This document shows positions 54,492-55,410 of a DNA stretch of 64,000 nt, piece after piece (the stretch's first letter is position 1; each line of letters begins with the position of its first letter). The DNA comes from Apilactobacillus micheneri. GTDB lineage: Bacteria; Bacillota; Bacilli; Lactobacillales; Lactobacillaceae. The translations under genes and the position numbers were made by a program. Below the pieces are notes generated by a model, which worked only from the letters and a program-made list of their open reading frames with translations, was not told where the DNA came from and made no database searches. Location of the stretch: positions 310,232 to 374,231 of the forward strand of contig NZ_POSO01000002.1 of the NCBI RefSeq assembly GCF_002993975.1. Reading direction: 5' to 3'.

Positions 54492-55410
54492 TGGTATCTA
54501 GGTGCCAAAATACCAACCAGCTTATTATGGATCGTTGTATATTTAAGTGGTACGCAATTTGGAGACCCCTTAGAAATTGATTTGTAATCCTCAAAAATGT
54601 GGAATATGAGGGCTTCATGAATCATTACATTCTTTAAAAGGGGTCGGTAGTTTACCGATACCTACATAATTAAATGAATGAGGTACCAAAGCAGTACACC
54701 ATTGATAACATTTAAATACAAAGTAGGGGGGTGCCGAATCGCCACCCCAGATAATATAAAGGGCTGTTTAACTTAAACACTCCTGTAAAATAAAAAAGCC
54801 ACTGATAATTAAATCAGTAGCTAATAATGAATCAGAAATGTATAGATTATGTTGAATAGCATGAGTATACGCCTATAAATAAACATATTGGTGGTACTTG
54901 TTTATAATCTTTATATTTCCCAACGCAAAATTGCGTCCGTTGCGTGTTTCCGAAATATTGGAGCCACGTATATGTTTAATGCTGCGTACCCAAATTAGGT
55001 ATGCAGGTCATAAATAAGAGTTACTTGTATATGTTTAACGCTAATATGCTGAAAACTTAGCATCATAGTATTTTCCATACACTATAACCAGCTCATAATT
55101 GAGCCCGAACCACTATTGGTTTGGTTGACCCTAAAACAGGTCAGGATAATTATAATAACGCTTAGGGCTTATATATTTAGTTTTCCCAAAATTGGATAAT
55201 CAGACAACCACGCATTTTTGAGAAACCTAAACTAGAACTATCACGGGGTATGCGCAAAATTGAGCAGACCTATTTAAGTAATGATCTAACAATTAGTTCA
55301 TATTGACCCAATGTAATATCACGGCTAATAATTGAGCTTTGATATATTTAATATAATTGGCTTCTCAAATTATTGGAGAAGCGTATTTAGGTTTCTTAAA
55401 TTAGGGATAC
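54492..55410. repeat. Hairpin array, main block
   Basis: No gene in 919 bp. At least 15 small hairpins with unrelated stems: TGGTAT (54492), CCTCA (54589), TCGGTA (54644), GGGGTG (54728), GTTTAA (54766), ACTGAT (54801), ACGCA-AAAT-TGCGT (54923), CCGA-AATA-TTGG (54950), TGCGTACC (54983), ATGCTGA-AAAC-TTAGCAT (55046), GCTCA-TAAT-TGAGC (55091), AACCA-CTAT-TGGTT (55108), TGACC (55126), CCA-AAAT-TGG (55186), TGCGCA-AAAT-TGAGCA (55251), GCTAA-TAAT-TGAGC (55324), GCTTCTC (55360). Many are preceded by TATATTTAA or TATATGTTTAA. Function unknown. Confidence 0.75.
54791..54822 (-). terminator. Leftward terminator-like hairpin within the array
   Basis: AGC-ACTGAT pairs with ATCAGT-GCT with one mismatch; a T6 run follows in the leftward direction. 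The same design (AAAAAAGCCACT ... AGTAGCTTA) recurs at 56688-56715. It could end antiporter transcripts that cross the array. Confidence 0.6.

Follow-up and report, generated by a model that had tools for sequence, protein, structure and literature searches.

Arrays of short, variable hairpins in the cargo zone of a phage-satellite-like island of Apilactobacillus micheneri

ROOL and GOLLD, large ornate RNAs of phages, form homo-oligomeric RNA cages and are expressed in the phage phase; each has a conserved secondary structure and Rfam models, with GOLLD members often exceeding 800 nt and combining a conserved 3′ region with a variable 5′ region (PMC12286853). Satellites known as PLEs (phage-inducible chromosomal island-like elements) have a noncoding RNA as their most abundant transcript, which is flanked by inverted repeats and shows antisense homology to the leaders of genes; that account does not mention hairpins (PMC7567579). 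P2-like phages and P4-like satellites have hotspots at which variable anti-phage genes are carried, and hairpin arrays are not mentioned in the covered portion of their description (PMC9122126). Here, we describe an array of short, imperfect hairpins at the right end of a 12.6-kb island in Apilactobacillus micheneri, within a window of 64,000 nucleotides (contig NZ_POSO01000002.1, positions 310,232 to 374,231) whose numbering is used throughout. We consider the array to be a noncoding scaffold, built from modular short hairpins, for the cargo zone of an island resembling a phage satellite. The PLE transcript thus offers a parallel from a phage satellite, though one set apart from the array by its inverted repeats and antisense homology, while the P2-like and P4-like hotspots share its variable cargo. 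Unlike ROOL and GOLLD, the array varies in its stems and in hairpin number, and is interrupted by genes.

The array occupies two blocks, and extends beyond the interval first reported (54492–55410):
54128–55430, plus strand: main (right) hairpin array block, 24 imperfect hairpins, reaching from the cargo operon to the antiporter gene.
52258–52620, plus strand: left hairpin array block, z-score 2.4, whose homologue is contiguous with the main block in genome G010 (locus L013).

An earlier note on this DNA had described a gene-free stretch packed with hairpins, and this description holds for an array that is even larger. Counting imperfect hairpins at a score of at least 8 against 60 dinucleotide shuffles, the interval first reported contains 19, compared with 7.0±2.3 in shuffled sequence, and the main block 24, compared with 9.8±2.5 (summed score z 7.5). 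Shuffled sequence thus falls below the array, and the claim withstands the comparison proposed for it. Real Lactobacillaceae DNA was also used as a control, in the form of 1,980 overlapping windows of 1,303 bp taken from the window outside the array and from the transfer-messenger RNA (tmRNA) flanks of 59 other loci. Only one of these matches the array in hairpin number, and none in summed score; among the 1,243 control windows with GC<0.38, the maxima are 20 hairpins and a score of 192, against 24 and 266 in the array. Folding of 54440–55430 gives z-scores of −5.6 on the plus strand and −5.3 on the minus strand (20 shuffles each), in keeping with the proposal that both strands be folded. Length-changing indels run through the array, which argues against coding.

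The size of the excess depends on how a hairpin is defined. Of eight simple counts (two regions, stems of at least 5 or at least 6, G-T allowed or not; 200 shuffles), four lie above every shuffle and four do not. Perfect stems of at least 5 number seven in 54492–55410, where shuffles average 1.9 and reach at most 6. Perfect hairpins do not distinguish the array, which has up to 6 per 500 bp where the coding DNA of the window has up to 8. High scores also occur in gaps that are not arrays, both in the window (909–1340, z 5.2; 56605–56875, z 5.1; 56605–57209, z 5.9) and in relatives (L014 1436–1886, z 4.1; L013 6990–7520, z 4.0), and some non-array gaps with z of at least 4 contain tRNA genes or terminators.

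Homologous arrays are present in two other genomes and in a second island of the window's own genome. Among the individual structures of the array, the following were distinguished:
54221–54246, plus strand: hairpin followed by a T-tract, resembling an intrinsic terminator, at the cargo junction and close to where the main block starts.
54295–54445, plus strand: most conserved domain, inverted repeat CATTGCATACAT ... ATGAATGCAAC, common to four arrays.
54728–54748, plus strand: hairpin class GGGGTNNCG-AAT-CNNNACCCC, which recurs in three genomes of two other genera.
54797–54822, minus strand: intrinsic-terminator-like hairpin within the array, in all four aligned arrays.
54923–54936, plus strand: hairpin ACGCA-AAAT-TGCGT, identical in four arrays, with two copies around an 86-aa open reading frame (ORF) in L013.

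A terminator-like hairpin similar to that at 54797–54822, also on the minus strand, lies near the right attachment repeat at 56693–56714.

These arrays tend to keep pairing while their letters change. Two pairs of homologous arrays were aligned in five pieces. Of 171 changed pairs, 21 (12%) are compensatory, compared with 3% in 60 column-shuffled alignments (largest 8 pairs), and 11 helices contain compensation, compared with 2.4 (largest 6). One badly aligned stretch accounts for 7 of the 21 pairs and 3 of the 11 helices; with that piece removed, 14 of 122 changed pairs are compensatory, a figure for which the null was not recomputed. Stems have been rewritten from CTTC/GAAG to CAAC/GTTG and from CGGTA/TACCG to CACCA/TGGTG, and the terminator-like hairpin at 54221–54246 is partly rewritten yet still paired in L013. 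A further pair of homologous arrays, L143 and L150, has 11 of 77 changed pairs compensatory, compared with 5% in shuffles (largest 7 pairs), or 6 of 50 with stricter hairpins (largest in shuffles 4), although two of the three helices listed look misaligned. The earlier suggestion that pairing rather than sequence is preserved is therefore borne out by compensatory change in relatives, together with the shuffle tests (four of the eight simple counts), and neither of the refuting outcomes named for it came about. Because most changed pairs are uncompensated, the constraint is moderate or the turnover fast.

Uncompensated change would also be expected if the hairpins were a neutral product of palindrome-making mutation, such as template switching, in fast-evolving noncoding DNA. 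Quasi-palindrome correction would likewise rewrite the two segments of a stem jointly, as in the change from CTTC/GAAG to CAAC/GTTG. Such a process does not account for the 1.6-kb noncoding stretch of the same island (50360–51980), which has no hairpin excess (z 0.1), nor for the constraint on loop length and closing pair, and we regard it as the least probable of the explanations weighed here.

That constraint is apparent at the loop end. For 88 hairpins from Apilactobacillus, a total that counts homologues, A-T closure reaches 64% (34% in shuffles) and T-A closure 16%; C-G is the second pair in 40% (11% in shuffles) and G-C in 9%, and loops of 3–4 nt make up 70% (39% in shuffles). When one array was kept per homologous pair, there were 30 A-T and 10 T-A closures, and 36 of 50 loops had 3–4 nt; host DNA of the window has 96 A-T and 92 T-A closures, with 110 of 256 loops of 3–4 nt, so that the non-redundant set differs from host DNA both in A-T closure (p=0.004) and in loop length (p=0.0002). 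Array loops are short and A/T-rich. The earlier note had held that most stems close with A-T around a four-base loop, and this stands as an enrichment across the Apilactobacillus set, but not as a majority rule in the window, where, of 23 hairpins with a score of at least 9, 12 are closed by A-T and 5 by T-A, and loops of four and of three nucleotides number eight each. In a second set of arrays (L143, L151, L156, L207), the second pair is C-G in 18 hairpins and G-C in 7. Being the same on both strands, the closing-pair signature cannot separate RNA from DNA.

Other regularities claimed for the array fared less well. No preference for G-A mismatches exists (GA+AG 25, CT+TC 24, GT+TG 73, AC+CA 47), and a degenerate repeat of about 60 bp is not supported, since hairpins are spaced 53±33 bp apart and no such tandem repeat was found. 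The recurrent string said to precede many units survives in part: TATAT(G)TTTAA-like strings occur more often than expected (5 times against 0.44, with at most 3 in any of 300 shuffles), yet the 24 hairpins far outnumber them.

The earlier note knew of no described family that would fit, and database searches agree. At gathering score, no Rfam family is found in the array (only tRNA in the window), and the best chance match has an E-value of 0.65. The ROOL and GOLLD models have no match in 54100–55500 up to E 10, none at gathering score in loci L013–L019, L143, L058 and L065, and none in L143, L156 and L207 up to E 0.1. Sponge RNAs of the CsrB/RsmZ type consist of many hairpins with variable stems and a constrained loop that carries GGA, and bind one protein in many copies. 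Many variable-stem hairpins with a constrained loop are likewise found in the array, yet GGA occurs in 0 of 120 array loops. Repetitive extragenic palindromic sequences and bacterial interspersed mosaic elements (REP/BIME) have a GTAG tetranucleotide 5′ of the hairpin and occur as near-identical copies; in the array, GTAG accompanies 4 of 95 hairpins, and 52200–55500 contains no tandem family of hairpin units. Integron attC sites, once folded, carry an RYYYAAC box at one end and a GTTRRRY box at the other. As in attC arrays, the hairpins adjoin cassette-like cargo genes, but array stems are short and contiguous, the integrase is of ordinary phage type, and none of 95 hairpins carries both R boxes, so the attC-like sites that had been suggested are not supported in the defining sense.

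Intrinsic terminators provide another point of comparison, since the array could be a graveyard of terminators or insulators left by successive cargo genes, serving only to stop read-through between converging genes. The array does lie between converging genes, the junctions of cargo cassettes have T-tract hairpins that resemble terminators, and terminator-like sites in 52200–56900 exceed shuffles (9, two of them overlapping, against 1.9). However, at least five T within the following 8 nt are found after only 17 of 93 and 1 of 50 hairpins, with a mean of 3.1 and 1.9 T against a background of 2.8 and 2.2, and neglected relics would lose their pairing, yet compensation is above chance. We therefore consider this account unlikely.

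Genes are lodged within the array, and the relatives reveal how cargo is placed. Three genes border or interrupt the two blocks in the window:
52803–53252, plus strand: cargo gene for a SocA/Panacea-domain antitoxin-like protein (PF13274, E 9.1e-6), lodged within the array.
53258–54127, plus strand: cargo gene for a 289-aa predicted membrane protein, adjoining the Panacea gene (phrog_5763, E 6.6e-28, function unknown).
55431–56561, minus strand: Na+/H+ exchanger family gene at a second cargo position (PF00999, E 5.8e-77).

The island's right end thus runs from the Panacea-domain and membrane proteins through the hairpin region to the exchanger gene, and the genes on either side of the array converge. 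Neither the Panacea-domain protein nor the membrane protein matches a PADLOC family, and the latter has no Pfam family; by its position beside the Panacea protein, it may act as a toxin. The homologues of both blocks adjoin each other without a break in G010 (L013), so that the window's Panacea operon is lodged within the array. On the left, this insertion is bounded by a position in a hairpin loop; on the right, by a different hairpin, after which come T's and ATCG. In L014, the second island of the window's genome, two other ORFs occupy the corresponding array position when compared with L015 (genome G007), bordered by two diverged copies of a hairpin unit. In L013, the 86-aa ORF lies between two copies of the ACGCAAAATTGCGT hairpin. 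Hairpins are also gained and lost whole, two from the left block of the window being missing or fused in L013. The junctions were read by eye, from two cases.

These observations give some weight to the possibility that the array is a DNA platform for cargo exchange, whose hairpins would fold while the DNA is single-stranded (in replication, packaging or transformation) and provide short shared anchors for the insertion, swapping and loss of cargo. The comparison of the occupied site in the window with the continuous array of G010, the two-ORF cargo of L014 and the 86-aa ORF of L013, each between hairpin copies, and the turnover of hairpins as units all accord with it, as does the absence of strand asymmetry in evolutionary changes. 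Some array-side cargo is toxin-antitoxin-like, restriction-modification or a defence-type ATPase: Panacea genes occur with a RelA/SpoT-domain protein (L015 5661–7026) and with a membrane-protein gene (window 52803–54127 and L207 4996–6347), a DNA methyltransferase with an HNH protein (L058), and, near the weak array of L216, an AAA ATPase resembling a defence family. Among the cargo tested, PADLOC names only the L216 and L058 proteins. The antiporter and the ORFs that lack a family have no defence-like character, loops are polarised by strand in the second set, attC boxes are lacking (0 of 95) and no dedicated recombinase was identified, while homologous recombination and cargo-borne terminators could yield the same junctions, which come from two cases read by eye. 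We regard this platform as possible but doubtful, and rank it a close second. If the array does work as DNA, it would be relevant to the way in which satellites exchange cargo genes at set positions.

We tentatively favour, on sequence evidence and at somewhat less than an even chance, a rightward multi-hairpin RNA. The array would be transcribed rightward, and the RNA would present many similar hairpin ends (C-A, a short A-rich loop, T-G) on unrelated stems, acting as a multivalent sponge or scaffold that may bind a protein of the host, the helper phage or the satellite. Stems that vary, short loops under constraint, a high copy number and rapid turnover of modules would all be expected of a multivalent hairpin RNA read at its loop end. 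A long multi-hairpin RNA was among the meanings first proposed, and it is the leading candidate here; a decoy or binding array, also proposed, is compatible with the constrained loop end. We count in favour of an RNA the loop constraint in Apilactobacillus, the compensation above chance and the minority of hairpins with T-tracts. To these may be added an excess of A over T in loops on the rightward strand of the second set (L143, L151, L156; 22:4, p=0.0005), which in the first, Apilactobacillus set is 27:17 (p=0.17) and in the control 15:16, and an excess of G-T over A-C mismatches in the first set at strict cut-offs (49:29 at a score of at least 10, p=0.017; 37:17 at at least 11, p=0.04). These strand tests were chosen with the arrays already in view, and the second set was selected in part by visual inspection.

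A number of observations weigh against an RNA. The G-T excess is not significant in the first set at looser cut-offs (67:42, p=0.25; 57:39, p=0.26) and is absent from the second (14:20), and evolutionary changes have no G-T versus A-C asymmetry (37:32). Fold z-scores do not differ between strands (mean −2.29 versus −2.14, p=0.32), noncoding controls also fold below zero (−1.1 to −1.5), and L143 and A58 do no better. A-T closure in the second set is 14 of 35, with no excess over host DNA (p=0.85). Genes break up the array, and terminator-like hairpins stand on the plus strand near the start of the main block and on the minus strand inside it. Any long rightward transcript would thus have to start from an internal promoter, and no conserved promoter was seen in the aligned arrays. 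G-U statistics and folding energies thus do not discriminate the functional strand, and from the letters alone we lean towards the rightward one. Should an RNA be confirmed, ROOL and GOLLD would be joined by another type of large structured RNA, carried by phage satellites.

More broadly, the arrays hint at an undescribed structural element. We speculate, with considerable reserve, that they may form a new class of fast-evolving, sequence-free element in the satellites and prophages of Lactobacillaceae, in which tens of hairpins are kept by selection solely for their pairing and for a loop that is short and A/T-rich, and provide a multivalent single-stranded scaffold that binds protein and docks cargo, often defence or toxin-antitoxin genes. 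Whether RNA or DNA, such arrays mark cargo positions in islands. The literature searched contains no description of hairpin arrays in Lactobacillaceae satellites, subscription literature being mostly outside its coverage. An element that keeps structure but not letters is missed by sequence searches, and arrays may consequently have been overlooked in mobile elements.

By sequence, homologous arrays were found only in Apilactobacillus, in 3 of 100 genomes (the window's own included), with a remnant in G012. The G007 array has no homologue in phage or plasmid records. In the same genus, G013 has a weak array without sequence relatives. Four of seven matching genomes (G005, G009, G049, G050) share only the terminator-like stretch at 54797–54822, and no homologous array was found in them; G209 and G259 had no array on inspection, G219 was discounted by hairpin count only, and G293 and G326, with matches of 22–27 bp, were not counted. 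Scores are low in the weak arrays L058 (z 2.2) and L172/L216 (z 2.6), and in the remnant L025 (z 1.0).

More arrays can be sought by hairpin density. In the tmRNA flanks of 60 genomes, 57 of them from other genera, 52 noncoding gaps of at least 400 bp have a mean z of 1.2 (sd 1.5), and two exceed z 4. One of these, L143, is a clear further array; the other, L141, was judged by eye not to be one. Satellites or prophages from other genera of Lactobacillaceae contain array-like regions without overall sequence similarity. As a query, L143 has matches in 27 of 301 genomes from 12 genera, most of the listed places being a cos-like segment of about 90 bp (GAGCGCTCACATATCGTC ... AGGGGGG; L143 1520–1632, loci L151–L166, in several Lactobacillaceae genera). 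Part of this segment weakly matches Lactococcus phage records (E 7e-3), two near the record start, and one 20-base part has no exact match in viral contigs. Beside it, hairpins are in excess in L150 (z 4.7), L151 (z 3.7) and L156 (z 7.9), and narrower regions give z 3.1 in L155, 2.8 in L157, 3.8 in L158 and 1.3 in L159. These last four were left out of the second set, though L151 is no stronger than L158, and L150 was excluded from non-redundant sets as a homologue of L143.

Proximity to such segments raises the possibility of a packaging or replication element near cos or terS, binding terminase or a satellite protein. In L013, the array lies shortly 3′ of a TerS gene, L143-type arrays adjoin the cos-like segment, and iteron-like TTGCAACC/TTGCATAC repeats occur in the window at 51.5 and 54.3 kb. 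Yet the window contains no cos-like pattern, no TerS was recognised among the island ORFs searched, and the arrays are far more variable than the cos-like segment. Furthermore, of the 20 loci found with L143, only six (L143 included) have a gap of z>4 and three have no noncoding gap of at least 250 bp, so that an array is no fixed companion of the segment, and some loci that carry it have no hairpin excess. A packaging role appears distinctly unlikely.

Single hairpins were also used as queries. The GGGGTNNCG-AAT-CNNNACCCC class is exact in 4 of 350 genomes from three genera, with none among the matches listed for the reversed control. In viral contigs, it has 55 matches in 52 contigs; 15 are noncoding (z 0.5 to 4.5), and the 40 in ORFs of at least 100 aa were treated as chance. 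Seven stretches, two of them genomic, were inspected closely. In the viral contig L207, terminase, portal and capsid genes are followed by hairpins (z 3.4) and then by a Panacea and membrane-protein pair resembling that of the window. Phage records contain no homologue of the window array, nor of those of L143, L207 and L216. The ACGCAAAATTGCGTCCGTT hairpin, in turn, has three matches in genome contigs (Apilactobacillus timberlakei, L040 and L041) and three loci in viral contigs. Two of the viral matches are inside ORFs read as Rha-family genes and were taken as chance. The unrelated viral contig L020 has two short intergenic hairpins with CAATTTTG centres at 2081–2130, near an ORF that looks primase-like by eye.

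The island is inserted at a tRNA-Lys gene of Apilactobacillus (window 44262–56892) and flanked by 19-bp direct repeats:
44262–44280, plus strand: attL, 19-bp direct repeat.
56874–56892, plus strand: attR, 19-bp direct repeat, overlapping the 3′ end of tRNA-Lys (56880–56952, minus strand).
44382–45542, minus strand: tyrosine integrase (PF00589, E 1.2e-28).
48035–50359, plus strand: D5/PriCT primase-helicase.

Further genes encode a helix-turn-helix repressor and a Rha-like regulator, and none of the ten larger island ORFs searched is a structural gene. Phage-inducible chromosomal islands (PICIs) are characterised by an integrase, a specific att site, a primase, a lack of structural and lysis genes and a size of about 15 kb (PMC6092414). 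The island has the integrase, att site, primase and size, without structural genes among the ORFs searched, and by gene content and att repeats its layout is phage-satellite-like, of the PICI type. PICIs also have terS or a helper cos site and are induced and packaged by a helper phage; among the relatives, L013 has a TerS gene. In viral contigs, the primase had no locus and the integrase one, and TerS had none. Iteron-like repeats (AACCGTAACAAGCGTAACA, TTGCAACC/TTGCATAC and a 22-bp tandem pair; 50505–50845, 51500–51580, 51624–51667 and 54288–54440) are located both 3′ of the primase and close to where the main block starts, and may represent the replication origin. A 17-bp tandem repeat stands 5′ of the Rha-like gene (46909–46973). 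Just beyond the island, 42077–43063 encodes an ADP-ribosyltransferase-family protein (PF03496), which a protein encoded at 6765–7730 of L207 resembles, as judged by eye.
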